DNA of 64,000 nt from positions 3,348,001 to 3,412,000 of the forward strand of contig NZ_CP036402.1 in the NCBI RefSeq assembly GCF_004322855.1, given 5' to 3'. The position numbers and the translations under genes were made by a program. The notes beneath the pieces are model-generated. The model was not told the origin of the DNA, did no database searches, and worked only from the letters and a program-made list of their open reading frames with translations. Every line of letters begins with the position of its first letter. Within the stretch, counting starts at the first letter, position 1. Of the stretch, positions 14,770 through 32,737 are shown piece after piece. Origin of the DNA: Egibacter rhizosphaerae. GTDB taxonomy: Bacteria > Actinomycetota > Nitriliruptoria > Euzebyales > Egibacteraceae.

Positions 14770-15801
14770 ATGCATGCTCGACAGCTGTACTCACTGCCCG
14801 AGCCCCCACGAGCCCCGAGTGCTCGACTCCACGCCATCGACTCGCATACCGGCGGCGAACCGACGCGTGTGATATTTGAGGGGTTGCCCGAGCTCGATGG
14901 GGCCTCAGCCTCCGAGCTCCGCGACCAGCTCGCCGAGCAGCACGACTGGGTACGTCGAGCCTCGGTGTACGAGCCCCGAGGACACAACGACATGTTCGTC
15001 GCGGCCCTGTACCCCGGCCAGCCGGACCCAGCGATTCCCCGCGTCGTGTTCATGTCGGCAGCGGGCTATCCGGACATGTGTGGTCACGCCACCATCGGGG
15101 TTGCCACGACGCTGGTCGAGATGGGCTGGGTCGATCCCGGCGACGAGGTACTGACGCTCGACGTGCCGGGGGGACTCATCGAGGTGTCGCTGCAGCGGCA
15201 AGGCGCCCGGGTCCACGCTGTGACGTTTCGGAATCAACCGGCTTTCCATCTCAAGAGGGTCGCCGTCCCGGGACCGCAGGGCGACGTGCCCGTAGATGTG
15301 GCCTACGGAGGGCAGTGGTACGGGTTCCTTCCAGCCTCCGCGTTTGGATTGCGTGTCGTGCCCGAGGAGCTGACACGATTGCAAGCAGCGGCCGACGAGG
15401 TCCGCAGCTCACTGGTGGCGGCACTGGAGACGCCGGACCCTCGGACAGGATCGCCGCCGGCTGTGGCGAACATCGTGTGGTATGCCGAACCAGCCTCGGA
15501 GGCCGGCGATGCCCGCAACGTTCCGATCGCACCCGGTGGCGTCTTCGATCGATCCCCCTGCGGAACTGCGACCTGTGCACGGCTGGCGGTGCTCCACGCC
15601 CAGCAGGGGCTCGAGGTCGACGAACCGTTCGTCAACGAGGGGATCCTAGGGACGCGCTTCCATGCGCGGATCAGGCGAATCATAGATGTCGAGGGATACC
15701 GCGGCGTGATTCCCGAGGTGACGGGTGACGCGTGGCTAACGGGGGTGTCGGATATGTGGATCGACGACCAGGACCCGCTGGGCCAAGGATTCGTCGTCTA
15801 G
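14770..15801 (+). CDS. Proline racemase-family epimerase (hydroxyproline 2-epimerase-like)
   Basis: A 343-aa cofactor-independent racemase/epimerase of the proline racemase family. Both catalytic cysteines are present: Cys104 in DMCGHATIG and Cys264 in DRSPCGTATCARLA. This favours a racemase or epimerase over the Thr-containing 3-hydroxyproline dehydratases. IDSHTGGEPTRV marks the N-terminus and GTRFHARI is in the C-terminal lobe. ATG 14770 has GAGGGA 7 bases upstream. The gene faces the FAD oxidase gene tail to tail (15816). Epimerases of this family turn L-hydroxyproline or proline into the D form for an FAD-dependent D-amino acid oxidase, which matches the neighbour. The exact substrate is inference. 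Confidence 0.88.
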   Translation: MHARQLYSLPEPPRAPSARLHAIDSHTGGEPTRVIFEGLPELDGASASELRDQLAEQHDWVRRASVYEPRGHNDMFVAALYPGQPDPAIPRVVFMSAAGYPDMCGHATIGVATTLVEMGWVDPGDEVLTLDVPGGLIEVSLQRQGARVHAVTFRNQPAFHLKRVAVPGPQGDVPVDVAYGGQWYGFLPASAFGLRVVPEELTRLQAAADEVRSSLVAALETPDPRTGSPPAVANIVWYAEPASEAGDARNVPIAPGGVFDRSPCGTATCARLAVLHAQQGLEVDEPFVNEGILGTRFHARIRRIIDVEGYRGVIPEVTGDAWLTGVSDMWIDDQDPLGQGFVV

Positions 15802-15815
15802 ACCACCACCTGAGG

Positions 15816-16976
15816 CTAGAAGACTTGGGGCTCGTGGACGAGTCCGTCGAGTCCTTCGCCGCGGAAGCGGGTCGCCGAGAACTCCTCAAACTCCTCGGCC
15901 ATCACGCCGTCGAGCACTGCTCGCGCGAGGCGGCGGCTGACTGCGGGGGCGAGCATGAACCCGTGGCCGCTGAAGCCCGCTGCTATCCACAGATTGGCGT
16001 GCTCGCCGACAGGGCCGAGTATGGGTTGGCCGTCGGGCGTCATATCGTAGTGCCCCTCGACGAGCAGCGGGAAGGACACGAACTGCAGCCGCGGCAACAG
16101 CTTCTCGATCTGTTCGTCGATTCGTTGGCGCCACTGCTGCCGACCCGCTTCGGTGGCCTCACCCCTGGCGAGGAGGTCGCTCGCCAGGATGCGTCCATCG
16201 GCAAGGTGCTTGGCCGCGAAGTGCCGCTCCGTGGCGACCACCAACGGGTCGAGCAGCCGCTCGTTGATGGGGGCACTCATGAACAGGTAGCGCCGCTCCT
16301 TCTCGATCGGCAAGCGAATGCCGAGGGGGCGGAGCAAGGGGGGAGTGTCGTAGCCGGCCGCGATTACGACGTGCTCCGCGCAGATGCTGGACCCGTCTGC
16401 GAGCACCACCGTCCACGCCGCTCCCGTGCGCTCGAGGCGCTGGACCTCTGCGTGCTCGATCTGGGCACCGTGTCTCGTGGCGGCTTCCGCATAGGCCTCC
16501 ACGGGGGCCTGCGCGTTGTCGAAGTAGCCGTCCTCCGCGCAGTAGGCCGCCCCGACCAGGGTCTCCGTCATCAGGTCGGGGACCACCTCGGCGGCCTCCT
16601 CGGGAGTCATGAGGTCGGATGGGATCCCGAGGCTGTTCTGCAAGGCGACATTATCTCGCAGTTGCGCCATCACTTCGTCGGACTCGGCCAGGAAGACGTA
16701 GCCGCACGATGACAACCTCGGCCGCGCGCTGGTCTCGAGACGCTCGTGGATGTCGCGATAGAAGAAGAACGCTTCTCGTGCGAGCCGGCAATTGACGGCC
16801 GTCCCCCACTGCTGCCTAACCCCCCCGGGCTGAACCCCGGACGCTCCGGCTCCGATGCGGTCGCGTTCCAACACTGTCACCTCGCCCGCGCCCTGGCTCG
16901 CGAGCTCGAAGGCGGTGGAGAGTCCGGTCACCCCCGCCCCGACGATCACCACGTCGCGATTGCGCCTGCTGGACAT
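15816..16976 (-). CDS. FAD-dependent amine/D-amino acid oxidoreductase (DAO family)
   Basis: A 386-aa FAD enzyme. The N-terminal dinucleotide-binding motif is VVIVGAGVTGLSTAFELA, with TVLERDRIGAGASG closing the second strand. HVVIAAGYDTPPLL is the middle FAD contact and the C-terminal signature is LWIAAGFSGHGFMLAPAVS. This layout is that of sarcosine oxidase or glycine oxidase-like DAO enzymes, which oxidise secondary or D-amino acids. ATG 16976 has AGGAGG upstream. It is the last of three minus-strand genes (hyuB, amidohydrolase, oxidase) and sits next to the proline racemase-like gene, suggesting oxidation of a cyclic or N-substituted amino acid to an imine. Confidence 0.86.
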   Translation of the reverse strand: MSSRRNRDVVIVGAGVTGLSTAFELASQGAGEVTVLERDRIGAGASGVQPGGVRQQWGTAVNCRLAREAFFFYRDIHERLETSARPRLSSCGYVFLAESDEVMAQLRDNVALQNSLGIPSDLMTPEEAAEVVPDLMTETLVGAAYCAEDGYFDNAQAPVEAYAEAATRHGAQIEHAEVQRLERTGAAWTVVLADGSSICAEHVVIAAGYDTPPLLRPLGIRLPIEKERRYLFMSAPINERLLDPLVVATERHFAAKHLADGRILASDLLARGEATEAGRQQWRQRIDEQIEKLLPRLQFVSFPLLVEGHYDMTPDGQPILGPVGEHANLWIAAGFSGHGFMLAPAVSRRLARAVLDGVMAEEFEEFSATRFRGEGLDGLVHEPQVF

Positions 16977-17023
16977 CTCCCCACCACCTCCTGGCCCGCG
17001 GTCCATGTGAAGCCGGTCGGGTG

Positions 17024-18265
17024 TCATGTGGTCATCCGACCGGTCAGGTCCTTGACGATTTGACCGGCCTGGATCACCAACACCACGGACTCGGGGTCCT
17101 CGAGCAGAGCCGGGTTCTCCAGTGGGTCCCCGTCCACGACGACGAGATCGGCGATCTTGCCCGGCTCCACGGTCCCGAGGTCGTCGGCTTGCCCGATGAT
17201 CGTCGCGTTGTGCAGCGTCGCGGCCGTGAGGGCCTCGAGAGGATCGGTCATCTCGGCACGCAGTCGAATCTCGAGGCCTCGGCCGCTCTGCTCGGCACCG
17301 ATGAGGTCGCTCCCCAAGCCCATCAGCACGCCCGCTCCTCGCGCGGATTTGAGAGCTTGACGCAGCGCTGAGCGCATTTGTTGCGCGCGCCCGACCGCTT
17401 CCTCGGGAGCGCCCCATTCTTGCCAGTGCTCCTGAAGGAGGTGACCTATGGACAGGGTGGGCACCATCGCTGCGCCCTGGCGAGCCATCTCAGTGGCGAG
17501 GGCGTCATCGAGGAACGTGCCGTGCTCGATGCACGAGACACCAGCATCGAGCGCTTGAGTGATCGATTCGCGGTTGTGGGCGTGGACGGTCACGTAGCGT
17601 CCGCGTGCCTGGGCCTCTGTCACCGCCGCGCGCAGTTCATCGACGGTGAACTGGGCGTCCTCGAGGCGGTCGGTGTGCGAGATCACGCCTCCGCTGACTG
17701 CGAGCTTGAGCTGCGTCGCTCCGCGTTGAAAGGCCTTGCGCGCGGCCTCGCGCACTTCGTCCGGCCCGTCGCACACCATCGAGGGCTTGACGAGTCCGGG
17801 GATGCCGCTGTGGTACACGTCGTTCTTCTCGCCCAGGTACGGCACGGACAAGTCGCCGTGACCGCCGGTCTGGCAGATCATCGGACCGGACGGAAGGAGC
17901 CGCGGGCCGCGGACGTGGCCCCGTGCGATCGCCTGTGCGACACCACCGTCCACGCCCCCACAATCACGGGCGGTGGTGAAACCTGCTTCGAGTGCCAGCG
18001 CACAATTGCGGAAGATCAAAGCAGCGGTGACCGCGGCGGGAGTCCGGAAGTCAGGTACCGGCCCAACGATGCCTAGGTGCGCATGTGCCTCAATGAGTCC
18101 CGGCAGGGCGACCATCCCGTCCAGATCCACCGTGGGGGTGTCGCGTCGTGCGGCGGCCGGACCGACCGCGTCGATTCGGTCGTCGGAGATGGCGACGGCA
18201 ACGGGATCGCTGATCCGGCCCCGGACGGGGTCGAACAGTCTCGGGCCATCCAGTGTGAGGACCAT
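17024..18265 (-). CDS. Amidohydrolase family metalloenzyme (prolidase/imidazolonepropionase-like)
   Basis: A 413-aa TIM-barrel amidohydrolase. Metal ligands are visible: the HxH motif in GLIEAHAHLGIVG, the Lys in ATQLKLAVSGG, His residues in YVTVHAHNRE and SCIEHGTFLDD, and the Asp in VLMGLGSDLIGAE. The C-terminal beta-sandwich ends with DLGTVEPGKIADLVVVDGDP, typical of the imidazolonepropionase/Xaa-Pro dipeptidase-like branch. ATG 18265 overlaps the hyuB stop (TGATG), so the two are coupled. It likely cleaves a C-N bond in a cyclic amide, dipeptide or guanidine product of the same pathway. The substrate is unknown. Confidence 0.87.
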   Translation of the reverse strand: MVLTLDGPRLFDPVRGRISDPVAVAISDDRIDAVGPAAARRDTPTVDLDGMVALPGLIEAHAHLGIVGPVPDFRTPAAVTAALIFRNCALALEAGFTTARDCGGVDGGVAQAIARGHVRGPRLLPSGPMICQTGGHGDLSVPYLGEKNDVYHSGIPGLVKPSMVCDGPDEVREAARKAFQRGATQLKLAVSGGVISHTDRLEDAQFTVDELRAAVTEAQARGRYVTVHAHNRESITQALDAGVSCIEHGTFLDDALATEMARQGAAMVPTLSIGHLLQEHWQEWGAPEEAVGRAQQMRSALRQALKSARGAGVLMGLGSDLIGAEQSGRGLEIRLRAEMTDPLEALTAATLHNATIIGQADDLGTVEPGKIADLVVVDGDPLENPALLEDPESVVLVIQAGQIVKDLTGRMTT

Positions 18266-20064
18266 CAGTGGTTGCTCCCTTGTGCAGTGGTCTCGCCCAT
18301 GGGGGCGGACGTGTTCGCGCGTTGTTGGTTGGTGGGGGTGGGGTCGATGTCGAGGCTGTGGGGGTCGAGGACGACGTGGTAGTCCCGCTCGGCGGCGTGA
18401 GCGCTGACGTAGCCGGCTTCGACGTCGCGGCGCACGGCCTCGGGGTCGCGGTGCGCGGGTGGACCCCAACCGCCGCCGCCGCCGGTTTGGATGCTGACCA
18501 GCCCGTCGGCGCCCACCGGCACCCGCATGCCCTTCTGATAGACCTGCTCCGCCCCGGTACCCGGATGCGCGACGACTTGGCCGTGCTGCGCACTGCCGCC
18601 CCCGAAGAGGCCCCAGGGTGGGCATTGTTGGCGCTCCAGGATGCAGGTCATCTCGGCGTGGTGGTCCAGCACCCGGTAGTCGCGCACGATGCCCAGCCCA
18701 CCGCGGTGCTGTCCGGGTCCGCCCGAGTCCTGGCGGAGCTCGTGGCGCTCCAGCCGCAACGGGAACCGGGTCTCGATCACCTCGGCCGGGATGTTGCGCG
18801 TGTCCCCGTCGTTGATGAAGATCATCGCTGACTCCCCGTCGCCGTGCGGCCCGGCGCCCCACCCCCCGTTCTCGGGCTCCTGGTGGATGTACAGCTCCCC
18901 ACTGCGCGGATCGGTCCCCACGAAGAAGAACCCCGACAGGTCCCCGTAGTGCGCCGCCGCGACGCGGTCGGGAAGGGTGTCGGAGAGCGCGGTGATCACG
19001 GTGTCGATCAAGATGCGCAGGTGTTGGCCGTACATGAAGGTGGGGGCGGGGTATTGGGCGTTGAACATGCTGTCGTCGGGGCAGTCGAGGTGTAGGGGCG
19101 CGAAGTCGCCTTCGGTGGCGGGGGTGTGCGGATGGGTCAGGCACTTCAACGCGATCCGGCACGCCGCCAGCGTCGCCGGGAGCCCGCAGTTGACCGGTCC
19201 CACGTTCTGGGCATGCGAGCCCTGCAGATCGATGTGCAGCTGATCGCCGTGTACCTGTGCGGTGACCTCCACCGGCAACGGCCCGTTGCCCAAACAATCG
19301 TCATCAAGACACGAGGACGCGCGGTACACCCCGTCGCGCATGTCGCTGATCGCCTGCCGAGTGCGCTGCTCGCCCTGCCGATGCATGACCGTGATCACCG
19401 ACTCGACGGTGTCGCGACCATGCCGGCCGAAGATCTCGGCCACCCGCGCTGCGCCCGACAAGGCCGCCGCCGTCTGCGCCCGCAGATCGCCCATCATGTT
19501 CTTGGTGTAGCGAATGTTGTGCTCGATCAAGCGCGTGACGTGCTCGTCCTGGCGGCCCTCCCGCAACACCTGCACCGACCGGAACCACAGTCCCTCCTGC
19601 ACCACATCGGTGCTGTCGATACTGCCGCCCGGGTCCTTGCCGCCGATGTCCAACCAATGCGCCCGCGTCGACGTGAACCCCAACAGCTCGCCGCCGCGGG
19701 AGAACACCGGCGCCACCGCCGCGACATCATTGAGATGATTACCCGTCAAATACGGATCGTTCATCAAGAACACATCGCCGGGCCGCAGCGACTCCACCCC
19801 CACGTCATGCACCACCCACTGCACCGCCACCGCCAGATTGCCCAAGAAGATCGGCAACCCATCGGCCTGCGCCACCATCCGACCCGCCCGATCAAAGACC
19901 CCACAACTGAAGTCCAACACCTCATAAATGATCGGGTTATACGCCGTGCGCATCAGATTCGTCTTCATCTCCTCCGCCGCGGCAATCAACGCATGCCGCA
20001 CAACCTCCACCCGCACCGGGCTGACGTCCCCAGCTGCCATGGGACCAGTGGCTAGTGGGTTCAC
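18265..20064 (-). CDS. hyuB: Hydantoinase B/oxoprolinase-family subunit (copy 1)
   Basis: A 599-aa HyuB-type subunit. HyuA and HyuB together form ATP-dependent hydantoinases, 5-oxoprolinases and acetone/acetophenone carboxylase-like enzymes that open or carboxylate small rings or ketones. Family blocks: [60 protein letters not shown]-like [36 protein letters not shown] and a Gly-rich [13 protein letters not shown] tail. The GTG at 20064 has GGAGAGG at good spacing. The stop overlaps the amidohydrolase start. Bases 18324-20019 form an inverted repeat with the other hyuB (22684-24379), identical over the first 992 bp. No hyuA lies on this strand. Confidence 0.92.
18324..20019 (-). repeat. Left arm of 1,696-bp inverted repeat (hyuB copy 1)
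   Basis: Reverse complement of 22684-24379, aligned without gaps along 1,696 bases. By reading, bases 19028-20019 here are identical to 22684-23675 there. The remainder differs at five places only: an 86-base island, a 2-base change, one base, a 25-base island and one base. The repeat ends inside the coding sequence at both sides. Confidence 0.95.
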
Positions 20065-20551
20065 GTGGGGCCTCTCCTTCGCTCGGGGCAATAGCACCCG
20101 CTGGGGTCGTCACAGCTCATCGGGACGATGAGCCTTGAGGAAGCTGAACGGACCTCCCCGGGGTGTCAGGTGGCGATACCGGTCAGCAGGGCCGCGATTG
20201 CCGGCTTGACCTCGGGCTTCGCTGGTCTCTCCACTGTCCCGTAGCCGATTCTGGCTGACCTGTTGACCTTCCTCGCAGGGCCGGGCAGACTCTACCGACA
20301 TTGAGAATGTTGAACAAGGGTCTTCCTGGAGGCTTCTTGAGACGATGCGGCCCACCAGAGCGCCCGCGTCCACCACGTCGGGCGCGGCTGAGCGAGACCG
20401 TCGCTGCCCGGTCGCGGTTCACGGACGATCGGCCTCACCGAGCGGAGTCGTGCGTCCTTCAAGCGGCACAGATCCCCCGCGTCGCTTCCCGCTACGCGGG
20501 GGAGATCGGTGACCTTCGGTTCCGGGTCTCTACACGTTCGAAGGGGACAGC
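20065..20551. promoter_or_regulatory. Divergent hyuB/hyuA promoter region
   Basis: The 487 bases between two divergent genes hold no convincing gene. It must contain the promoters for the minus operon (hyuB, amidohydrolase, oxidase) and the plus operon (hyuA, hyuB, transporter). A palindrome at 20298-20310 is the only clear operator candidate. The region lies inside the segment flanked by the inverted hyuB repeats. Confidence 0.55.
20298..20310. promoter_or_regulatory. Candidate operator ACATT-GAG-AATGT
   Basis: A perfect 5-bp inverted repeat with a 3-base centre, in a locally AT-rich patch midway in the hyuB/hyuA divergent promoter. The core TTGAG-ATG recurs on the minus strand at 32790-32800, upstream of the XRE-cupin regulator gene, which makes that regulator a candidate binder. 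Inference from two sites only. Confidence 0.35.
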
Positions 20552-22660
20552 ATGGTGACACAGCAGGCTGGGTCGGCTCGCTCCCTGCGGGTTGGGGTTG
20601 ACATCGGCGGGACGTTCACGGACCTCGTGATCGTCGACGACGATGAAGGCTCCGTTCGGCTCGAGAAGACGCCGACCACACCCGGGCAGCTGTCGCAGGG
20701 AATCCTGCGGGGGCTTGACTCGGCCGGGATCAGCGGGGACGCCATCGGCCACCTGGCGCACGGTACGACCGTGGGCATCAACACCTTGCTCCAGCGTCGT
20801 GGAGCGAGGACGGGCTTGCTGACCACCAAGGGCTTCCGAGACGCCTATGAGATCGGCCGTGGGGCACGACCGGATGTGTACAACCTGCACTTCCGCAAGC
20901 CCCAGCCGCTCGTCCCCCGGGAACGCCGGCTCGAGGTCGACGAGCGCTTGGCTGTGGATGGCCAGGTGGTACGCCCCTTGGACGAGGCGAGCGTGCGGTC
21001 GGCCATGGAGGTACTCCGGCGCTACGAGGTCGACACCGTCGCGGTGTGCCTCATCCACGCGTACGTAAATCCCGCCCACGAGCGGCGAGTCGCCGAGATC
21101 GTGCGCGAGGGGTTGCCCGACGCCTTCGTCTGCACGTCCCACGAGCTCGTTCGTGAATGGCGCGAGTACGAGCGCACGAGCACCACCTGCGTGAATGCCT
21201 ACATCATGCCGCGCACGGGTGAGTACATCGACGACCTCATCACCGGCCTCGAGGCCCAGGGCTACGCGAACACCCTCTTCGTGAACCAGTCGGCGGGGGG
21301 TGTGATGTCGGCCACCACCGCCAAGTGGAAGCCCGTTGGAACGCTGATGTCCGGGCCCTCGGGGGGTGCAGCCGCAGCGGCTCACGTCGCGGAGCTCATG
21401 GACCTGCCGGGCGGCATCATCTCCTTCGACATGGGGGGCACGAGTACAGACGTCGCCGTCATCGAGGGGGGGACGCTCCCCATCACCGCCGACGCGAAGA
21501 TCGACCGCATCCCGGTCATGGTCCCGATGATGGCGATCGAGTCGATCGGCGCAGGTGGAGGTTCCATCGGCAAGGTCGATGAGGTCGGCGCGCTGGATGT
21601 CGGGCCACAGAGCGCCGGTGCGGAACCCGGCCCCGCCTGCTACGGCGGCGGTGGTGAGCTGCCGACGGTCACTGATGCGGACCTCCTGCTCGGCCGGCTT
21701 CCGAAGGAGCGGTTCCTGCCGGGCCAGATGTCCCTCGACGAGGACGCCGCTCGCAAGGCGCTGGACCAGCACGTGGGCGAACCGTTGGGACTCACCCCAG
21801 AGGAGTCCGCTGCGGGCATCGTCGAGCTCGTCAACCTGAAGATGGCCATGGCCGTGCGTTCGCTCACGGTCGAGCGTGGCCTGGATCCCCGAGACTTCTC
21901 GCTGTTTGCCTTTGGCGGCGCCGGGCCAATGCATGCGTGCGCGATCGCCGAGGAACTCGGAATTCCCAAGGTGATCGTCCCGCTCGCTGCGGGTCAATTC
22001 TCCGCGTTGGGGATCCTCATGAGCGACATCCGCCACGACTTCGTGCGGACCGCCGCGGAGCGCCTCAGGGAGCCCACCGCCGAGGAACTCAGCGAGGAAT
22101 TCGGAGCGGTCGAAGGCGAAGCCCGGGGAACGCTTGAGCGCGAAGGTGTCGCGCCGGGCGACATGGCGTTCTCACGGTCCGTTGATCTCCGCTATGCGGG
22201 CCAGGAATACACCGTCAACATCCCGGTACCCTCCGGAGCTCTCGACCACGATGGCCTAGTGCAGGTCTTCGAGGCGTTCCACAGTCGGCATCAGCAGGTG
22301 TACAGCCACAGTTCCCCCGAGGAACAGCCCGAGCTAGTCAACCTGCGCGTCGCCGCGATCGGGCGGCTGCCGAGTCTCAAACTCCAGCGCTTGCCGATCG
22401 GCTCCTCGGAACCGGGGACGGCTTCCGTCGTCGGTTCGCAATCGATCGTGTTCGACCGCTCCGAGGACGTGGTCGAGTCGCCGGTGTACGACCGCGCCTC
22501 CATGGAGGCCGGCAACGTAGTGAAGGGGCCCTGCATCATCGCGGACATGGGGTCCACGACCGTCGTGCCACCCACGGCCACAGGTGAGCTCGACGAATTC
22601 GGCAACCTGGTTATCCACGTGGAGGAGCAGGCTTCCCAGACGGCTCGGAGCGATCAGTGA
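20552..22660 (+). CDS. hyuA: Hydantoinase A/oxoprolinase-family ATP-binding subunit
   Basis: A 702-aa HyuA-type subunit with an actin-like ATPase fold. The phosphate loop is VGVDIGGTFTDLVIVDDD near residue 15, followed by HGTTVGINTLLQRRGARTGL. The middle block is GPSGGAAAAAHVAE, then the second phosphate loop SFDMGGTSTDVAVIEGG, and IGAGGGSIGKVD. AFGGAGPMHACAIAEELG lies in the C-terminal part. It activates a cyclic amide or ketone by phosphorylation for reaction on HyuB. ATG 20552 has AAGGGG upstream. Its TGA overlaps the ATG of the next hyuB (TGATG), so the subunits are made together. It is the only hyuA among three hyuB genes and lies between the arms of the inverted repeat. Confidence 0.94.
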   Translation: MVTQQAGSARSLRVGVDIGGTFTDLVIVDDDEGSVRLEKTPTTPGQLSQGILRGLDSAGISGDAIGHLAHGTTVGINTLLQRRGARTGLLTTKGFRDAYEIGRGARPDVYNLHFRKPQPLVPRERRLEVDERLAVDGQVVRPLDEASVRSAMEVLRRYEVDTVAVCLIHAYVNPAHERRVAEIVREGLPDAFVCTSHELVREWREYERTSTTCVNAYIMPRTGEYIDDLITGLEAQGYANTLFVNQSAGGVMSATTAKWKPVGTLMSGPSGGAAAAAHVAELMDLPGGIISFDMGGTSTDVAVIEGGTLPITADAKIDRIPVMVPMMAIESIGAGGGSIGKVDEVGALDVGPQSAGAEPGPACYGGGGELPTVTDADLLLGRLPKERFLPGQMSLDEDAARKALDQHVGEPLGLTPEESAAGIVELVNLKMAMAVRSLTVERGLDPRDFSLFAFGGAGPMHACAIAEELGIPKVIVPLAAGQFSALGILMSDIRHDFVRTAAERLREPTAEELSEEFGAVEGEARGTLEREGVAPGDMAFSRSVDLRYAGQEYTVNIPVPSGALDHDGLVQVFEAFHSRHQQVYSHSSPEEQPELVNLRVAAIGRLPSLKLQRLPIGSSEPGTASVVGSQSIVFDRSEDVVESPVYDRASMEAGNVVKGPCIIADMGSTTVVPPTATGELDEFGNLVIHVEEQASQTARSDQ

Positions 22661-24411
22661 TGAACACGGTCCAGCAGATCGATCCGGTGCGGGTGGAGGT
22701 TGTGCGGCATGCGTTGATTGCCGCGGCGGAGGAGATGAAGACGAATCTGATGCGCACGGCGTATAACCCGATCATTTATGAGGTGTTGGACTTCAGTTGT
22801 GGGGTCTTTGATCGGGCGGGTCGGATGGTGGCGCAGGCCGATGGGTTGCCGATCTTCTTGGGCAATCTGGCGGTGGCGGTGCAGTGGGTGGTGCATGACG
22901 TGGGGGTGGAGTCGCTGCGGCCCGGCGATGTGTTCTTGATGAACGATCCGTATTTGACGGGTAATCATCTCAATGATGTCGCGGCGGTGGCGCCGGTGTT
23001 CTCCCGCGGCGGCGAGCTGTTGGGGTTCACGTCGACGCGGGCGCATTGGTTGGACATCGGCGGCAAGGACCCGGGCGGCAGTATCGACAGCACCGATGTG
23101 GTGCAGGAGGGACTGTGGTTCCGGTCGGTGCAGGTGTTGCGGGAGGGCCGCCAGGACGAGCACGTCACGCGCTTGATCGAGCACAACATTCGCTACACCA
23201 AGAACATGATGGGCGATCTGCGGGCGCAGACGGCGGCGGCCTTGTCGGGCGCAGCGCGGGTGGCCGAGATCTTCGGCCGGCATGGTCGCGACACCGTCGA
23301 GTCGGTGATCACGGTCATGCATCGGCAGGGCGAGCAGCGCACTCGGCAGGCGATCAGCGACATGCGCGACGGGGTGTACCGCGCGTCCTCGTGTCTTGAT
23401 GACGATTGTTTGGGCAACGGGCCGTTGCCGGTGGAGGTCACCGCACAGGTACACGGCGATCAGCTGCACATCGATCTGCAGGGCTCGCATGCCCAGAACG
23501 TGGGACCGGTCAACTGCGGGCTCCCGGCGACGCTGGCGGCGTGCCGGATCGCGTTGAAGTGCCTGACCCATCCGCACACCCCCGCCACCGAAGGCGACTT
23601 CGCGCCCCTACACCTCGACTGCCCCGACGACAGCATGTTCAACGCCCAATACCCCGCCCCCACCTTCATGTACGGAACCCATCTGATCCTGCTTATTGAC
23701 ACGATCGTGAGCGCGCTGAGCGAGGCGATCCCGGAGCGGGTGGCCGCCGCGCACTACGGCAACCTGTCGGGGTTCTTCTTCGTGGGGACCGATCCGCGCA
23801 GTGGGGAGCTGTACATCCACCAGGAGCCCGAGAACGGGGGGTGGGGCGCCGGGCCGCACGGCGACGGGGAGTCAGCGATGATCTTCATCGCCGACGGGGA
23901 CACGCGCAACATCCCGGCCGAGGTGATCGAGACCCGGTTCCCGTTGCGGCTGGAGCGCCACGAGCTCCGCCAGGACTCGGGCGGACCCGGACAGCACCGC
24001 GGTGGGCTGGGCATCGTGCGCGACTACCGGGTGCTGGACCACCACGCCGAGATGACCTGCATCATGGAGCGCCAACAATGCCCACCCTGGGGCCTCTTCG
24101 GGGGTGAGGCGGCTGCCCACTGTCGCACGGTCGCGCATCCGGGTACCGGGGCGGAGCAGGTCTATCAGAAGGGCATGCGGGTGCCGGTGGGCGCCGACGG
24201 GCTGGTCAGCATCCAAACCGGCGGCGGCGGCGGTTGGGGTCCACCCGCGCACCGCGACCCCGAGGCCGTGCGCCGCGACGTCGAAGCCGGCTACGTCAGC
24301 GCTCACGCCGCCGAGCGGGACTACCACGTCGTCCTCGACCCCCACAGCCTCGACATCGACCCTACCCCCACCAACCAACGACGGGCCGACCCCACCGGAT
24401 CGGACGCGTAA
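22660..24411 (+). CDS. hyuB: Hydantoinase B/oxoprolinase-family subunit (copy 2)
   Basis: A 583-aa HyuB subunit translationally coupled to hyuA. It is nearly identical to copy 1 apart from its N-terminal dozen residues, the last residues and short islands: [20 protein letters not shown] here against [20 protein letters not shown] in copy 1; one residue at FIAD/FIND; MERQQ/LERQQ; and [28 protein letters not shown]. The substituted residues cluster in two places, perhaps near a subunit or substrate surface. The repeated part uses more T- and A-ending codons than its neighbours (for example in the codons for [12 protein letters not shown]), suggesting foreign origin. The dipeptide-type transporter follows 63 bases later. 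Confidence 0.93.
22684..24379 (+). repeat. Right arm of 1,696-bp inverted repeat (hyuB copy 2)
   Basis: Inverted copy of 18324-20019. Differences by eye are confined to 23676-23761, 23890-23891, 24064, 24105-24129 and 24363. The arms enclose 2,664 bases that carry hyuA and both promoters. Confidence 0.95.
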
Positions 24412-24474: not shown

Positions 24475-26193
24475 ATGTTCAATCGTGACACGCGGGACCG
24501 CCGAGTCCGCCTCGGCGCACTCGGCGTTCTCGCCCTGGTGATGCTCCTCGCGGCGGCCTGTGCGCCGGGTGACCCCGACGAGGTGGACGACGTCGAGGAC
24601 GACCCCCAGGCTCAGGAAGAGGCGGGCGACAGCGAGGAAGCCCAGGACCAGGACGCCGAGTCCACGGAGGGCTCGACGCTGACCATCGCGATCCCTGACG
24701 ACATCGCGACGCTTAATCCGCCCGACGCGACCTCGCCACGATCCAACATCGCGCTCGTGCAGCTCTACGATTCGCCGTTCACCTACGAGCATGTCGAGCT
24801 GGACGACGGAACGGTGATCGGGGACTCCACGGCCCTCGAGGGACTGATCTTCGAGGAGTGGGAGACCGAGGACGATGGGCAGACCTACACCATCACCATC
24901 CGCGAGGACGCCGCGTTCCACGACGGGGAGCCCATCACCGCGGAGCACGTGCACTACATGTTCGAGCGGTCCTTTGAGACCCAGGATGGCGAGAGCGGTT
25001 CGAACTGGTACCTGACCAACGTCTCCGGGATCACCGAGCCGCCTGAGGTCATCGACGAGCACACTATCGAGTTGTCGGTCGAGCAGCCTTCGCAGCTCAC
25101 GATGCGCAGCCTCACCGCGATCCAGATGGGCATCCTGGATTCCCAGGAGATCGAGGAGAACGCGCCCGAGGACGATCCGTGGGCGAACGCGTGGCTGTCC
25201 GACAACGTCGCCGGGGGTAGCGGGCCGTACGAGTTGGTCGAGTGGGAGCGTGACCAGCGCGTTGTATTCGAGGCTAACGCCGACTACTGGCGAGGCGCCC
25301 CCGACATCGACCGGATCGTGTGGGAGATCGTCCCCTCCGCTTCTGAGCGGGTGCAGTTGCTGCAGGCTGGCGAAGTGGACATGGTCGAGGGGCTGGGGCC
25401 CGACGAGATCGCCGCGGTCGAGGGTGCCGATGGGGTCGACATCGTCTCGGTGCCGTCGCAGAACCGTCTCTTCCTGGGGATGAACAACACGGTGGCGCCC
25501 TACGACGACCAGGCGTTTCGTCAAGCCGTCTCTCATGCGGTTGACTACGACGAGCTGATCCAGGAGGTCTACGGAGGTGACGCGGAGCGCCTGCACGGCC
25601 CGTACCCGGAGGGCCCTGCAGGCTCCCCCCACTCGCTCGGCGACGAGATCGGTTACGAGACCGACCTTGCCGAGGCGGAACGGTTGCTCGAGGAGAGCGG
25701 CTACGACGGCTCGCCGGTCACCCTGTCGATCGACAACTCGGTCGCTGAGCACGAGGAGGTCGCCGTGCGCGTCCAGTCCTTCCTTGCAGCGATCGACGTG
25801 GACGTCGAGATCGACCAGATGACTCCCTCGGTGTTCGCTGAGCAGCGCAACGAGACGACACTCGAGTTCTTCGTTGACGAATCGCTGTCATGGATCGACG
25901 ACCCGGCGTACTTCCTCTCGGTGAACTTCCAATGCGGCGTCCTGATCAACCACGTTGAGTACTGCAACGAGGACATCGATGCGGCCATCGAGGAAGGCTG
26001 GACCGAGATGGACGAGGACGTGCGGCAGGAGATGTTCGGGGAGGCCCAGCGAACGATCGTCGACGAGGCGCCCTGGGTGTTCATCGCCCACCCCGACTTC
26101 CAGCTCGCCATGCGTGACCACGTTGAGGGCTACGTCCACTACATCGACGAGCTCCCCCGCTACTACGACCTGTCCCTCAGCGACGACGACTAG
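24475..26193 (+). CDS. Dipeptide/oligopeptide-type ABC transporter substrate-binding lipoprotein
   Basis: A 572-aa solute-binding protein of family 5 (SBP_bac_5). The signal peptide ends in a lipobox LLAAAC, so the mature protein is lipid-anchored outside the membrane. A strongly acidic linker of about 35 residues (mostly Asp, Glu, Gln) follows. The body has TLTIAIPDDIATLNPPDA, the typical TITIREDAAFHDGEPITA, GSGPYELVEWERDQRVVFE, and AFRQAVSHAVDYDELIQ. ATG 24475 has a GAGAAGGG site upstream. It starts the transporter part of the hyuAB operon, so its ligand is probably the substrate of the pathway. Whether this is a peptide, hydantoin or opine-like compound is not readable. Confidence 0.9.
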   Translation: MFNRDTRDRRVRLGALGVLALVMLLAAACAPGDPDEVDDVEDDPQAQEEAGDSEEAQDQDAESTEGSTLTIAIPDDIATLNPPDATSPRSNIALVQLYDSPFTYEHVELDDGTVIGDSTALEGLIFEEWETEDDGQTYTITIREDAAFHDGEPITAEHVHYMFERSFETQDGESGSNWYLTNVSGITEPPEVIDEHTIELSVEQPSQLTMRSLTAIQMGILDSQEIEENAPEDDPWANAWLSDNVAGGSGPYELVEWERDQRVVFEANADYWRGAPDIDRIVWEIVPSASERVQLLQAGEVDMVEGLGPDEIAAVEGADGVDIVSVPSQNRLFLGMNNTVAPYDDQAFRQAVSHAVDYDELIQEVYGGDAERLHGPYPEGPAGSPHSLGDEIGYETDLAEAERLLEESGYDGSPVTLSIDNSVAEHEEVAVRVQSFLAAIDVDVEIDQMTPSVFAEQRNETTLEFFVDESLSWIDDPAYFLSVNFQCGVLINHVEYCNEDIDAAIEEGWTEMDEDVRQEMFGEAQRTIVDEAPWVFIAHPDFQLAMRDHVEGYVHYIDELPRYYDLSLSDDD

Positions 26194-26247
26194 CGCGGTC
26201 TCGGGCGGGGTGGGTTCTCGCCCGACACCGTGGCGGAGAGGCCCTGG

Positions 26248-27258
26248 ATGCGTCTCGCCCTCTACCTTGCCAAGCGTCTCGGACTGCTGCTCGTGTCCTT
26301 GCTCGGTGTGAGCATCATCACGTTCGTGGTCACGCGGGTGGTGCCGGGGAATCCGGCGGCGTTGATCGTCGGGGAGTACGCCGACCATGCCCGGGTCGAG
26401 GAGGTCATCGCGAGCCTGGGCTTTGACCGGCCCCTCCACGAGCAGTACTTCACGTACCTGGGCTCCCTGCTTCAGGGGGACCTGGGCACCAGCTGGCGCA
26501 CGGGCAACGACGTGGTGGCCGACCTCGCGGTGCGTTGGCCTGCGACCGTCGAGCTCGCCGGCTTTGCCCTCGTGCTCATCCTTCTCTGGGCATTGCCACT
26601 CGGGATCTGGGCTGGGACTCGCCCGGGTTCCGTCCCCGATCGGTTCGCGAACGCCCTCTCCGGGCTCGGGGTGTCGATGCCCGAGTTCTGGCTCGGGGTG
26701 CTCCTGTTGTTCGTCTTCTTCGGGACGCTCGGGTGGGCGCCGCCCCCCCTGGGACGCATCTCGGGGGTGTCCGCGCCCCCGACGATCACCGGCTTCTATT
26801 TGGTCGACGCCCTGATGGCCGGACAGTGGGCGGCCCTGTGGGCCGCATTGCGACAATTGCTGCTGCCGGCCGCGACGCTTGCCTTCGTCTTGGGTGCCCC
26901 GTTGTTGCGGGTCACACGCGCCTTCATGCGTGAGGCGATGTCGGCGCAGCACATTCGAGCCGCGCGGGCGTTGGGCGTGGGCCGGGCCTCCCTGGTCTTC
27001 CGACACGGGTTGCCGAACGCCTTGCTGCCGGTCACCACGATGATGGCGATGCTCTTCGGCTACCTGCTGGGGGGGACCGTCATGGTCGAGTACGTCTTCG
27101 CCTGGCCGGGACTCGGGAAGTACGCCGTGGACTCGATCAACGCTGGTGACTATGCCCCTGTCATGGCGGTCGTGCTGGTAAGCGCGCTGAGCTACCTGCT
27201 GGTCTACATGCTTGTGGACATCATGCACTTCTTCCTCGACCCGAGGTCTCGCGCATGA
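26248..27258 (+). CDS. Dpp/Opp-type ABC transporter permease (DppB-like)
   Basis: A 336-aa permease with about six membrane helices. Family marks: an N-terminal helix followed by VVPGNPAALIVGE, LGFDRPLHEQYFTYLGSLLQ, GDLGTSWRTGNDVV, and the cytoplasmic EAA loop at MREAMSAQHIRAARALGVGR, then GTVMVEYVFAWPGLGKYAVD. ATG 26248 is chosen over the GTG at 26230 because a GGAGAGG site precedes it. It overlaps the next permease by ATGA. It pairs with the DppC-like protein to form the membrane channel. Confidence 0.9.
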   Translation: MRLALYLAKRLGLLLVSLLGVSIITFVVTRVVPGNPAALIVGEYADHARVEEVIASLGFDRPLHEQYFTYLGSLLQGDLGTSWRTGNDVVADLAVRWPATVELAGFALVLILLWALPLGIWAGTRPGSVPDRFANALSGLGVSMPEFWLGVLLLFVFFGTLGWAPPPLGRISGVSAPPTITGFYLVDALMAGQWAALWAALRQLLLPAATLAFVLGAPLLRVTRAFMREAMSAQHIRAARALGVGRASLVFRHGLPNALLPVTTMMAMLFGYLLGGTVMVEYVFAWPGLGKYAVDSINAGDYAPVMAVVLVSALSYLLVYMLVDIMHFFLDPRSRA

Positions 27259-28091
27259 GCGCACCGAGCGCCACACCGGACGGAGCACGTCGCCCGATCG
27301 CGGGATTGCGAAGGTTCGCGAGCCCGGCGTACGTAGCCCTCACCATCATCGTGCTCATCGCCTTGGTCGGTCCGTTCCTGGTCGGAGATCCCGAGGCCGT
27401 CGGGACCGGGCCGACCCTCGCAGGACCGTCGCTGGCTCATCCGATGGGCACGAACGAGTTCGGCATGGACATGATGTCGCGGGTCGTGCATGCGGCGCGC
27501 CTGGATCTCGGCGTCGCAGTGAGCGCCTCCGCGATCGCGGTTGCGATCGGGATGCCGCTTGGCGCGCTGGCCGCGTACCGAGGCGGCTGGCTCGACAACG
27601 TCGTCCTCCGTATCTCGGAGTCGTTTCAGGCTTTTCCGGTCCTGCTACTCGGCATGGCGATCATCGCGGCGCTCGAATCGAGCATCCCGAATCTGATCGG
27701 CGTCATCGCCCTCGTCAACATCCCGGTGTACGTGCGGCTGACGCGCAGTGCGGTCGTGCCCCTCAAGGAAAGCGATTTCGTGCTCGCCGCGCGGTGCGCC
27801 GGCCACGGAACGCCAAGGATCGTCGCTCGGCACATTCTCCCGAACGTCACGAACGTCGTCGCCGCGCAGTTCTCGGTGAACTGCGCCTGGGCGATCCAGA
27901 TCCTCGCCGGCTTGAGCTTCATCGGTGTAGGCGTCGCGCTACCGACGGCGGAGTGGGGGGCGATGGTGCGCGGTGGCGCTGACCGCGTGGTGTACGGCGA
28001 ATGGTGGGTGGCCATGTTCCCGGGTCTCGCGATTCTCGTGACCGTCCTCACGCTCAATGCGGTCGCAGAACGGATCCGGCATGGAGACTGA
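27255..28091 (+). CDS. Dpp/Opp-type ABC transporter permease (DppC-like)
   Basis: A 278-aa permease starting at ATG 27255, inside the stop of the previous gene. Typical DppC features: one N-terminal helix (YVALTIIVLIALVGPFLV), then HPMGTNEFGMDMMSRVVHAA, then a block of helices with the EAA loop around ESDFVLAARCAGHGTPRI, and the C-terminal GLSFIGVGVALPTAEWGAMV. It heterodimerises with the DppB-like protein. Its end overlaps the first ATPase gene by 11 bases. Confidence 0.9.
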   Translation: MSAPSATPDGARRPIAGLRRFASPAYVALTIIVLIALVGPFLVGDPEAVGTGPTLAGPSLAHPMGTNEFGMDMMSRVVHAARLDLGVAVSASAIAVAIGMPLGALAAYRGGWLDNVVLRISESFQAFPVLLLGMAIIAALESSIPNLIGVIALVNIPVYVRLTRSAVVPLKESDFVLAARCAGHGTPRIVARHILPNVTNVVAAQFSVNCAWAIQILAGLSFIGVGVALPTAEWGAMVRGGADRVVYGEWWVAMFPGLAILVTVLTLNAVAERIRHGD

Positions 28092-29076
28092 GCCAGGCCG
28101 ACTGCCCGCAAGCGCGTGCGACGCGGATGGACCCTTGCTCGCGGTCGACGACCTGCGCGTGCGCCTTCGTGGCCAAGAGCACGACGTCCACGCCTTGCAG
28201 GGGGTCAGTTTCGACGTGGCGCCCAGACGACGCGTCGGGCTGGTGGGTGAGTCGGGCTCGGGGAAGAGCCTTACCGCGGCCGCGATCATGGGCATGCTCC
28301 CCCCACAAGCCGTCGTCGACGGCGGTCGCATCGACCTCGACGGACTGGACCTCGTGCGCGCGTCGGAGCGCCAGATGCGCCGGGTCCGCGGAACGCGACT
28401 GTCGGTGGTGTTCCAGCACGCGAAGGCGTCGCTGAACCCCGTCCTCACGGTGGGGAGCCAGATCGCGGAGGTACTGCGTATCCACAAGGGACTGTCACGT
28501 CGAGAGAGTCACGAGGGGGCTGTCGACCTCCTGCGTCAGATGGGCATCCCGAATCCGCAGGAACGTGCGCGCGAGTACGCGCACCAGTACTCAGGTGGGA
28601 TGGCCCAGCGGGCCACGCTCGCGCTCACGATGGCGTGCTCACCCGACCTGCTCATCGCGGACGAGCCCACAACCGGACTGGACGTGACCGTCGAGGAGCA
28701 GGTCCTTGAGCTGCTGACCAGCGAGATCGACGCGCGAGGGGCGTCCCTGCTCTTCATCAGCCATGACCTCGGCGCTGTAGCGCGTATCTGCGACGACGTG
28801 GTCGTCCTCTACGCGGGAATGGTGATGGAGAGTGGGCCCGCGGAGCGGGTTCTCAAGGATCCCAGGAACCCGTACACCCGCGAGCTCCTTCGTTGCTTCG
28901 ACCGACAACCGGGGCAGCGGCTGCACACGATCGAGGGGCAGGTCCCCACCATCACGACCCCTCATACGCGGTGTCCCTTCACCGACCGCTGCCCGTCGGT
29001 CGGGCCGGAGTGCCACTCATCGGTCCCTCAGCTCCGCGAGATGGACGGCAGAAAGGTGGCCTGTCATCGAGTCTGA
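28081..29076 (+). CDS. Dpp/Opp-type ABC transporter ATPase (DppD-like)
   Basis: A 331-aa ABC ATPase. Walker A is GESGSGKS, the Q-loop is VVFQHAKASLNPVL, the signature is YSGGMAQR, and Walker B is LLIADEPTTGLD, followed by FISHDLG with the switch His. The C-terminal oligopeptide-transporter domain has NPYTRELLRC and a Cys-containing CPFTDRCPSVGPEC motif that often binds an iron-sulphur cluster in this family. The ATG at 28081 lies inside the end of the permease gene, so translation is coupled. It powers uptake together with the second ATPase. Confidence 0.92.
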   Translation: METEPGRLPASACDADGPLLAVDDLRVRLRGQEHDVHALQGVSFDVAPRRRVGLVGESGSGKSLTAAAIMGMLPPQAVVDGGRIDLDGLDLVRASERQMRRVRGTRLSVVFQHAKASLNPVLTVGSQIAEVLRIHKGLSRRESHEGAVDLLRQMGIPNPQERAREYAHQYSGGMAQRATLALTMACSPDLLIADEPTTGLDVTVEEQVLELLTSEIDARGASLLFISHDLGAVARICDDVVVLYAGMVMESGPAERVLKDPRNPYTRELLRCFDRQPGQRLHTIEGQVPTITTPHTRCPFTDRCPSVGPECHSSVPQLREMDGRKVACHRV

Positions 29077-29140
29077 GACGCAGATCGCAGCATCCACCTC
29101 CCCGTCCCCGAGGGACGACCACGGTTCCCCGCTCCTACAG

Positions 29141-30133
29141 GTGGATGGGCTCGTTAAGGACTACGTGCGCACGGACGCCTCCCTGCGGCGTCGTCCTCTT
29201 CGGGCAGTGGACGGAGTGTCGTTCACGGTAGGTCGCAGCGAGACGTTCGCGCTCGTCGGCGAATCGGGCTCCGGGAAGTCCACGGTGGGGCGGGTCCTGT
29301 TGCGCCTCACCGAGCAGACCGCGGGCTCGATCGTCTTCGACGGTGAGGAAATCGGGAGGCTCTCCGAACGTCAGGCCCGCCGCTTCCGGCATCGCATCCA
29401 GATGTTGTTTCAAGACCCAATGGCTGCGTTCGATCCCCGGATGACGATCCGGGAGAGCCTCGCCGAGTTCCTCAGGCTACGCGGGGTGCCGCGGAGCGCC
29501 GTGAACAGCGAAGTGGCTCGCGCCCTAGCGTCCGTGGGCTTGGACTCGGACCTCGCCCGACGTCGGCCCGGAGCGCTGAGCGGCGGCCAGCTCCAGCGTG
29601 TTGGCGTCGCTCGGGCCCTAGCGCCGGAGCCGGAGCTGGTGTTTCTCGACGAGCCCACCTCCGCGCTGGACGTCTCGATCCGTGGTCAGATCGTGAACCT
29701 GCTGTCCGAGCTGCAGGAGACACAGTCGGTCGGCTACGTCCTCGTGACCCACGACTTGCGCGTCGTCGAGGCCATGGCCGATCGGGTCGGTGTGATGTAC
29801 CTGGGTCAGCTTGTTGAGGTCTGTGCCAAGGAAGAGTTGTTCGAGCGACCGCTGCATCCGTACACGCGGGCCCTCATCGGGGTCACCCGCCGGTCCGCGA
29901 TCGCCGAGGGAGCAGCCGATCACGCGGTCGGCCTCGGGCGCTTGCATGGCGAGCTGTCGCTCGAGCACGCCGAACGCGAGGGCTGCCGTCTCGCTCCACG
30001 GTGCCCCTTCGCGGAGGCTCGGTGCGAGGAGCCGCAGGAGTTGGTGCAGGTCGCGCCGGCCCACTGGGCGCGCTGCTGGAAGGCGCTGGACGTCGAGCAA
30101 CAGGTCGACGCCGACGCCACGAAGGGTTCGTGA
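29141..30133 (+). CDS. Dpp/Opp-type ABC transporter ATPase (DppF-like), start uncertain
   Basis: An ABC ATPase of at least 330 aa. Walker A GESGSGKS, Q-loop MLFQDPMAAFDPRMTIRE, signature LSGGQLQR, Walker B LVFLDEPTSALD and switch His in VTHDLRVV are present, with the C-terminal HPYTRALIG and a CRLAPRCPFAEARC cluster-like motif. The frame is open upstream to 28832, but no ATG, GTG or TTG lies between there and the GTG at 29141, which has no good ribosome-binding site and trims the first beta strand. The protein-like stretch begins near 29063, just after AAAGGTGG, so an unusual ATC start at 29066 is possible. Confidence 0.85.
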   Translation: MDGLVKDYVRTDASLRRRPLRAVDGVSFTVGRSETFALVGESGSGKSTVGRVLLRLTEQTAGSIVFDGEEIGRLSERQARRFRHRIQMLFQDPMAAFDPRMTIRESLAEFLRLRGVPRSAVNSEVARALASVGLDSDLARRRPGALSGGQLQRVGVARALAPEPELVFLDEPTSALDVSIRGQIVNLLSELQETQSVGYVLVTHDLRVVEAMADRVGVMYLGQLVEVCAKEELFERPLHPYTRALIGVTRRSAIAEGAADHAVGLGRLHGELSLEHAEREGCRLAPRCPFAEARCEEPQELVQVAPAHWARCWKALDVEQQVDADATKGS

Positions 30134-30175
30134 CGTCGTGACATGTTCATCGGACATCGGCGGAAGGGTCGTCCT

Positions 30176-30934
30176 GTGGAATCTATGAGGATCCGGGTGC
30201 TCGTTCCTCTCACCCTTGAGGGTGTCGGGGACGAGCCGATGCACGAACTTCTCGAGCTGTACGCCCAGGTCGGGGCGAAGAGCACCGAGCTCTCGGTCGC
30301 GAAGATTACCGGCGGCCCATCGACGGTCGAGCAGCACTACGACGAGGCGCTGGCTGCCGGCTACGCGGTGATGGAGGCGGAGCGCGCCGAGCGTGAGGGT
30401 TGCGACGCTGTATTGAACGCGTGTTTCGGGGACCCGGGTCTGCGCGCCTGCCGTGAGGCGGTCCGCATCCCCGTGATGGGGACCGGGCTCGCGTCGATGA
30501 CGGTGGCCACCACGCTGGGGAGTGCCTTCGGCCTCGTCGCAGTCGAGGAGAACGGCATTCCCCTGATGCGTGACCTCGCTAGTTCGTACGGCCACGCGCA
30601 TCGGTTGGCGGGTATCCGTCCGCTGGGCGCGTCGGTCCCCGAGATCCTCGGCAGCAGCGCACCGGGAGAAGGGCGAGACACGCTCCTGGAGCAAGCCCTC
30701 GTTCCGGCCCGGCGGCTCGTGGAGGAGGATGGCGCCGACGTCCTCATCCTGGGCTGCGGGGGACTCGGCAACGTTGGCGCCCCGAAGTGGCTGGAGGAGA
30801 GGCTTGGTGTCCCTGTCCTCGATCCCAACGTCACTGCGCTGAAGCTAACCGAACTCCTCGTCGTGGGCGGCGTCGCGCACAGCCGGACGACCTACCCGCC
30901 TCCTCGAGCAAAGCCGCGCAGCCACCCCGGGTGA
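30176..30934 (+). CDS. Asp/Glu/hydantoin racemase-family protein
   Basis: A 252-aa protein of the aspartate/glutamate/hydantoin racemase superfamily. The two-domain pseudo-symmetric fold has one catalytic Cys in each half: NACFGDPGLRACREAV and LILGCGGLGNVG. RIRVLVPLTLEG and PVMGTGLASMTVA match HyuE-like members. The GTG at 30176 has GGAAGGG 7 bases upstream; ATG 30185 is the alternative. It sits between the transporter and the third hyuB. In hydantoin pathways such enzymes interconvert the D and L forms of the 5-substituted ring, which fits the hyuAB neighbours. Confidence 0.85.
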   Translation: MESMRIRVLVPLTLEGVGDEPMHELLELYAQVGAKSTELSVAKITGGPSTVEQHYDEALAAGYAVMEAERAEREGCDAVLNACFGDPGLRACREAVRIPVMGTGLASMTVATTLGSAFGLVAVEENGIPLMRDLASSYGHAHRLAGIRPLGASVPEILGSSAPGEGRDTLLEQALVPARRLVEEDGADVLILGCGGLGNVGAPKWLEERLGVPVLDPNVTALKLTELLVVGGVAHSRTTYPPPRAKPRSHPG

Positions 30935-30988
30935 CACCCATCGATGACGCACCGCTCGTTGCGCCTGTCGCGGAGGAAGGGCTGGTAC

Positions 30989-32737
30989 ATGGTTGACCCC
31001 ATCACCGTCGAGGTCGTGCGCCACGCGCTGATCGCTGCTGCGGAGGAGATGAAGACCAACCTCCGCCGCACGGCCTACAACCCGATCATCTACGAGGTTC
31101 TCGATTTCAGCTGCGGGGTGCTGGATCGCAACACCCGAATGGTCGCGCAGTCCGACGGCCTGCCCATCTTCCTCGGTAACCTGACGGCCACGGTGAGCAC
31201 CATGGTGGCCGACGTGGGCGTCGACCGACTTCGGCCGGGCGACGTGTACCTCATGAACGACCCGTACGAGGCGGGAAACCACCTCAACGACGTCGCGACC
31301 ATCGCGCCGGTCTTCTCGGACGGGGACGAGCTGTTGGGCTTCGCCTGCACACGTGCGCACTGGCTCGACATCGGGGGCAAGGACCCTGCGGGGAGCCTGG
31401 ACGCGACCGAGATAATGCAGGAGGGGCTGTGGTTCCGCTCGGTACTACTACAGCGGGCAGGCGAACCGGTCCCCGCGGTGTACCGGATGATCGAGCACAA
31501 CATCCGCTACGCGCGCAACATGCTCGGCGACCTCCGCGCGCAAGTCGCCGCAACCCACGTGGGCGCTCAACGGGTTCGGGAGATCTTCGCTCGTCACGGA
31601 ACGTCGGTCGTCGAGCAGGCCATCGCGTCCATGCACCAGCAGGGTGACCAGCGGACACGCGACGCCATCCGACTCATGCCGGATGGGGTCTACGAGGCCG
31701 AAACCTGTATGGACGACGATTGCCGCGGCAACGGCCCGCTGCCCGTCAAAGTGACGGCCACCGTGGAGGGCAGCGACCTCACTATCGATCTGGCGGGCTC
31801 GCACGGACAGAACGTGGGTCCCGTCAATGCCGGACTCCCAGCGACCGAGGCCGCCTGCAAGATCGCGCTGAAGGCTCTCACGCACCCGCGAACCCCGACA
31901 ACGGACGGGGATTTCGAGGCGTTACGCGTCCTCTGCCCCGAGGACAGCATGTTCAACGCCCAGTTCCCGGCTCCGACGTTCATGTACACCACCCACCTGA
32001 TCACGCTGACCGATCTCGTGATCCGGGCGCTGAGCGGAGCAACGCCGCGGATGGCAGTGGCGGGGCACTACGGGCACCTTTGTGGATTCTTCTTCGTCGG
32101 CTTCGAGCCCACGGATGGGGAGTTGTACATCCACCAGGAACCCGAGCACGGTGGGTGGGGGGCGGGGCCCCACGGGGATGGGGAGAGCGCGATGATCTCC
32201 ATCGCGAACGGCGACACGCAGAACCTACCGGCGGAGATCATCGAGGCGCGGTTCCCGCTCCGTGTTGAGCGGCATGCCCTGCGTCCTGACACCGGCGGTC
32301 CAGGCATGTATCGCGGAGGGCTGGGTACCTATCGCGACTACCGCGTACTCGGTCACAACCCCGAGATGACGTCGGTGATCGATCGGCGCACCTGTCCGCC
32401 GTGGGGTCTTCAGGGCGGTGGAAGCGGCTCACCTGCGCGAGTGATGGTGGACGCCGAAGGCGCAGCGCCCGCCGAGTACGGGAACGGGCGTCGCGTACGG
32501 GTGGGTGCAGACCAGGTCGTCAGTGTTCAAACGCCCGGTGGCGGCGGGTGGGGCTCCCCGCTGGCCCGAGACCCGGAGCAGGTCCGGCTCGACGTCGAAC
32601 GTGGCTACGTCACATCCGCGGCGGCTCGGCTCCATTACGGGGTGGTGGTGGATGAGGTCGGGGAATTCCTGGACGCCGACGCGACCGCTCGGGTGCGCGA
32701 GGATCTGAGCCGCGACGAGGGGGTGACAACACCATGA
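30989..32737 (+). CDS. hyuB: Hydantoinase B/oxoprolinase-family subunit (copy 3, diverged)
   Basis: A 582-aa HyuB protein. It shares the order of all family blocks with the other two copies ([86 protein letters not shown]) but differs at many positions throughout and in codon choice. ATG 30989 has GGAGGAAGG upstream. No hyuA accompanies it; the single hyuA would have to serve several B subunits, or this copy works alone or with a distant partner. It ends the catabolic operon before the XRE-cupin regulator. Confidence 0.92.
   Translation: MVDPITVEVVRHALIAAAEEMKTNLRRTAYNPIIYEVLDFSCGVLDRNTRMVAQSDGLPIFLGNLTATVSTMVADVGVDRLRPGDVYLMNDPYEAGNHLNDVATIAPVFSDGDELLGFACTRAHWLDIGGKDPAGSLDATEIMQEGLWFRSVLLQRAGEPVPAVYRMIEHNIRYARNMLGDLRAQVAATHVGAQRVREIFARHGTSVVEQAIASMHQQGDQRTRDAIRLMPDGVYEAETCMDDDCRGNGPLPVKVTATVEGSDLTIDLAGSHGQNVGPVNAGLPATEAACKIALKALTHPRTPTTDGDFEALRVLCPEDSMFNAQFPAPTFMYTTHLITLTDLVIRALSGATPRMAVAGHYGHLCGFFFVGFEPTDGELYIHQEPEHGGWGAGPHGDGESAMISIANGDTQNLPAEIIEARFPLRVERHALRPDTGGPGMYRGGLGTYRDYRVLGHNPEMTSVIDRRTCPPWGLQGGGSGSPARVMVDAEGAAPAEYGNGRRVRVGADQVVSVQTPGGGGWGSPLARDPEQVRLDVERGYVTSAAARLHYGVVVDEVGEFLDADATARVREDLSRDEGVTTP

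Follow-up and report, generated by a model that had tools for sequence, protein, structure and literature searches.

In Campylobacter fetus the sap locus contains inverted homologous genes that flank a segment, and flipping of this segment, which has been demonstrated, changes the gene behind the promoter and so varies the surface protein. In the palindromes of primate Y chromosomes the inverted arms are homogenised by gene conversion, and inversion of the region between them arises as a by-product of crossover. With sap the hyuB genes described here share an arrangement in which a segment is enclosed by homologous genes in inverted orientation, and a flip of this segment would change the adjacent gene; at this locus, however, a hyu metabolic enzyme is encoded in place of a surface protein and the geometry alone is known. 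With the Y palindromes they share inverted arms that appear to have been homogenised, the difference being that the hyuB arms are bacterial and consist of a single gene. Literature searches for the inversion at sap and for metabolic loci able to invert yielded little. Concerted evolution of prokaryotic protein-coding paralogues, of which tufA and tufB are an example, has been described for 26 genes (PMC6053082), and the word hydantoin is absent from the main text of that paper. The hyuB copies resemble such pairs, which mostly encode subunits of complexes, in being near-identical at both synonymous and non-synonymous sites. Unlike the tufA/tufB-type pairs they are inverted, lie 2.7 kb apart, contain divergent islands and are known from one genome.

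The encoded proteins belong to the HyuA/HyuB family of ATP-dependent amidohydrolases, as the Hydantoinase_A and Hydantoinase_B domains and the Asp-His-Asp-His metal ligands are all present. In these domains, in the metal-ligand residues and in the pairing of A and B subunits they resemble caprolactamase (CapAB), N-methylhydantoinase and 5-oxoprolinase. They differ from these named hydrolases in that one hyuA accompanies three hyuB, and in that the scores against the caprolactamase models (NF050156/NF050157) were 605 bits for HyuA, 273 bits for HyuB1 and 279 bits for HyuB2, far under the cut-off of 1000 bits.

Geometry and gene content of the hyuB locus

The sequence was taken from Egibacter rhizosphaerae (GCF_004322855.1, NZ_CP036402.1), whose genome assembly is a single contig of 4.64 Mb. 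The stretch analysed, referred to as the window, comprises 64,000 nt from 3,348,001 to 3,412,000 of the forward strand, and all features are numbered by window position, with position 1 being its first letter (Table 1).

Table 1. Features of the hyuB locus, in window positions.
Feature	Position	Strand	Domain, family or comparison
FAD-dependent oxidase/dehydrogenase	15816..16985	-	DAO, PF01266; start approximate
Amidohydrolase, downstream of hyuB1	17024..18265	-	PF01979
hyuB1	18265..20064	-	Hydantoinase_B, PF02538
Left arm	18306..20019	-	hyuB1 nearly entire; repeat search and ungapped comparison
Island 2, hyuB1 copy	18574..18598	-	Partner of 24105-24129
Island 1, hyuB1 copy	18942..19027	-	Partner of 23676-23761
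Inter-arm core	20020..22683	.	hyuA, divergent intergenic region 20065-20551, 5' ends of both hyuB
hyuA	20552..22660	+	Hydant_A_N, Hydantoinase_A, Hydant_A_C
hyuB2	22660..24411	+	Hydantoinase_B, PF02538
Right arm	22684..24397	+	hyuB2 nearly entire; repeat search and ungapped comparison
992-bp block, inner arm end	22684..23675	+	100% identical to 19028-20019 (-)
Island 1, hyuB2 copy	23676..23761	+	60% nt identity to hyuB1
Island 2, hyuB2 copy	24105..24129	+	32% nt identity to hyuB1
Peptide-type ABC transporter (binding protein, 2 permeases, 2 ATPases), downstream of hyuB2	24475..30133	+	
Asp/Glu/hydantoin racemase family gene	30143..30934	+	PF01177
hyuB3, third hyuB	30944..32737	+	~65% aa identity to hyuB1 and hyuB2

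An inverted-repeat search revealed two pairs of segments, 18306-18573 with 24130-24397 and 18599-20019 with 22684-24104, each 97% complementary, and the inner ends of the arms were separated by 2,664 nt. Ungapped comparison of one arm with the other gave 62 differences over 1,714 bp, an identity of 96.4%, which is a similarity far beyond chance. The original prediction had described inverted hyuB arms of 1,696 bp, ungapped and in register, around a 2,664-bp core; its coordinates and the register were confirmed by the repeat search and the whole-arm comparison, and over the 1,696 bp there were 55 differences (96.8% identity). The core was also said to hold hyuA and both promoters. hyuA lies inside it, as do the hyuB1 and hyuB2 start codons, however the promoters had been placed there by geometry, and a sigma-70 scan of the core recognised no promoter-like site. 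The identity of the arms begins at the 9th codon and ends within the last few codons of both ORFs, with no flank included.

The start of hyuB1 is a GTG at 20064, preceded by a ribosome-site-like sequence, AAGGAGAG. Stop and start codons overlap as TGATG where hyuA meets the ATG of hyuB2 and where hyuB1 meets the ATG of the amidohydrolase, which suggests that translation may be coupled on both sides. The top NCBIfam model for the amidohydrolase was Xaa-Pro dipeptidase, with a score under the model cut-off. A gene of the proline racemase / hydroxyproline epimerase family (14740-15801) lies beside the oxidase and this Xaa-Pro-dipeptidase-like amidohydrolase. The cluster may have a role in the catabolism of proline-type compounds or cyclic amides. 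At its other end (30143-32737) the racemase-family gene is followed by hyuB3, which has no hyuA of its own; the same order of racemase and hyuB is found in a Bacillota MAG locus (L014, 13929-16354), in a cluster of four hyuB and two hyuA. Located 6.5 kb downstream of the arms, hyuB3 was the reference by which the islands were dated.

Mosaic of identity between hyuB1 and hyuB2

The differences between the arms are unevenly placed. Most of the 62 fall in two islands of approximately 86 and 25 bp, and the inner end of the arms is occupied by a perfect run of 992 bp, a feature that the original prediction did not mention. If 62 differences fell randomly in 1,714 bp, the probability of such a run would be about 3e-22. 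When polymorphic sites were scored relative to hyuB3, the longest run shared by hyuB1 and hyuB2 was 311 sites, compared to a maximum of 91 in 10,000 shuffles. Among the codons of conserved residues outside the islands, only 1 of 504 carried a synonymous difference between hyuB1 and hyuB2. Inside the islands the codons of conserved residues differed at 15 of 23 positions between hyuB1 and hyuB2, at 9 of 18 between hyuB1 and hyuB3 and at 7 of 17 between hyuB2 and hyuB3, and the nucleotide identity was 57.5% between the first two and 54.2% to hyuB3. By this measure the islands appear to date back to the split from hyuB3, whereas the remainder of the arms looks young. The blockwise near-identity is incompatible with uniform divergence, and the paralogues appear older than their present identity suggests, for which import from an absent donor is an alternative; both are properties of concertedly evolving paralogue pairs.

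Block identity that is broken by old divergent islands points to non-reciprocal gene conversion, and the ending of this identity inside both ORFs, as opposed to in the flanks, to a conversion limited by homology, unlike a segmental duplication. It is probable that hyuB1 and hyuB2 are old inverted paralogues made alike by ectopic gene conversion, with one HyuA probably shared between them and with differing pockets. The conversion would have proceeded by homologous recombination of the RecA type, mostly without crossover, and the islands would be short tracts that were never converted or that were protected by selection. This reading is drawn from one genome, and no orthologous hyuB pair was found in any genome.

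A young duplicate would likewise be nearly identical outside the islands, and one hyuB could have undergone a recent inverted duplication, after which short divergent tracts were brought in from another paralogue or strain, the islands then being imports from an absent third donor into one copy. In the present data relics and imports would look alike. Such a history, the main rival reading, is possible but rather unlikely. The identity is confined within both ORFs, at the edges of the family homology, and reaches no flank. Nor can a donor be found among the other hyuB genes of the genome, as the identity of hyuB3 to either island does not exceed 60% and the remaining two have protein identities of only about 32%. 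Duplication followed by import would in addition require gene conversion to place the islands. A false duplication or a homogenised repeat, produced by assembly or polishing, is a very improbable source of the pattern, given that the two arms are flanked by different operons, have ends of their own and contain divergent islands of conserved protein sequence, that the genome is a single contig, and that polishing is unable to make genes of approximately 60% identity identical.

Segmentation by codon style gave change points in both hyuB genes, with comparable ones in 2 of the 24 other ORFs of the window; these are only suggestive of conversion in both directions. The islands of hyuB1 or hyuB2 contain too few residues to be traced to any one relative. 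Over their first 900 nt (22660-23560 and 19128-20061) the two genes contain unusually many codons ending in G or T, whereas the later segments favour codons ending in C. In a 60-nt bin of island 1, all ten fourfold codons of hyuB2 end in G or T (10/10), while those of hyuB1 end mostly in C or A.

Scaffold, pocket and a probably shared HyuA

In the structure of caprolactamase (6YRA), CapB residues 5-205 include the helices in contact with CapA, the interface between CapB subunits and the metal site (PMC8453981). Over the counterpart of this region HyuB1 and HyuB2 are identical from residue 9 onwards, and apart from its first few residues the region lies inside the 992-bp block. The metal-site residues D44, H103, D106 and H129 are the same in both proteins. 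Aside from the ends, the differences between the two proteins are confined to islands 1 and 2 and to residues 411 (N/A) and 469 (L/M). In the alignment to CapB, these differences fall beside pocket positions, island 1 having residues 336/339 at one end and 365/368 at the other, while residue 411 aligned near the CapB 410-411 disulfide, and residue 469 adjoins Phe468; as the mapping is an alignment to a distant homologue, these positions describe closeness in sequence and not in space.

The genome contains three hyuA and five hyuB, and this cluster one and three respectively, which makes it probable that the HyuA is shared. Our hypothesis, which is read from sequence, is that an identical scaffold probably carries two different pockets, with one HyuA serving two HyuBs. 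The HyuA from the one gene in the core would pair with the products of both genes, hyuB1 having no hyuA of its own. Two enzymes with a common ATPase subunit would result, identical in the scaffold that fits HyuA and different in residues close to the substrate pocket. If this is correct, conversion keeps the common scaffold of the two HyuBs identical while the pocket positions escape it, and the locus would serve as a natural record that separates the parts of an ATP-dependent amidohydrolase responsible for partner binding from those that determine the substrate.

Possible inversion of the core, and related loci

The original prediction held that recombination between the arms would invert the core without breaking either hyuB frame and would couple hyuA to the other operon. 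When the inversion was carried out in silico with crossovers at five points along the arms, both hyuB frames remained open in every case, as they would in a RecA-dependent invertible locus of the sap type, and hyuA came to face the amidohydrolase and oxidase genes; on paper, both parts of this claim hold. Of the other sap-type features, the long arms and the divergent core are present, and the scan of this core recognised no promoter. As the islands belong to the outer portions of the arms, a crossover within the 992-bp block would keep each pocket variant with its own operon, and the move would be confined to hyuA, the divergent control region and the N-terminal portions of the HyuBs.

As conversion and crossover use common intermediates, the core may occasionally invert. 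It is plausible that inversion is a rare by-product of the same recombination that would have caused the conversion, and a low frequency of inversion is likewise plausible if exchange rates are comparable to those of known gene conversion. A core that inverts reversibly in the living population would make a stronger claim, in which RecA-dependent crossover is frequent enough to have consequences, hyuA shares a transcript with the transporter operon in one orientation and with the amidohydrolase/oxidase operon in the other while the pocket variants stay in place, and the arms are maintained by selection. If it occurred, this would be a heritable metabolic switch driven by ordinary homologous recombination. 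The geometry and reading frames allow it at each crossover point simulated, the TGATG overlaps would give a coupled operon in either orientation, RecA is encoded in the genome, and the sap inversion of C. fetus, cited in PMC5634654, is a precedent for flipping between inverted gene homologues. The identity of the arms is however no evidence for inversion, because a reciprocal crossover swaps sequence without making the arms identical, and conversion alone explains it. The empty promoter scan of the core also counts against a switch. A further locus (L023) contains a divergent hyuB / hyuA-hyuB arrangement without near-identical arms, the two hyuB being 34% identical to each other and the hyuB genes of the left operon only 38% identical to the focal hyuB, so this geometry arises without a switch. 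Reversible inversion of this kind is considered improbable, and the conversion mosaic between inverted paralogues that apparently share one partner appears to be the stronger finding.

Inverted repeats that bound a segment able to flip are also what a site-specific invertible element with a dedicated recombinase would present, however the repeats here are coding sequences of 1.7 kb and no cognate recombinase was found nearby. Across the genome the only match to a serine recombinase was a partial domain at 4.56 Mb, and among tyrosine recombinases the nearest is at 3.61 Mb, approximately 200 kb past the window, making such an element extremely improbable.

The genome set contained only one genome of the genus Egibacter. 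A class-wide hyuB search of 33 other genomes, most of them fragmented assemblies, found no close inverted hyuB pair; one genome (G031) had two hyuB genes 9 kb apart in the same direction. No relative of more than 60% identity was found in a search of plasmids. The nearest hyuB relatives, approximately 55% identical, are in Bacillota MAGs (L014 and L015), where hyuB and hyuA are co-directional. In an Acidimicrobiaceae MAG (L019, 5723-12869) two co-directional hyuB genes have a protein identity of 73%, one with an adjacent upstream hyuA and one without.
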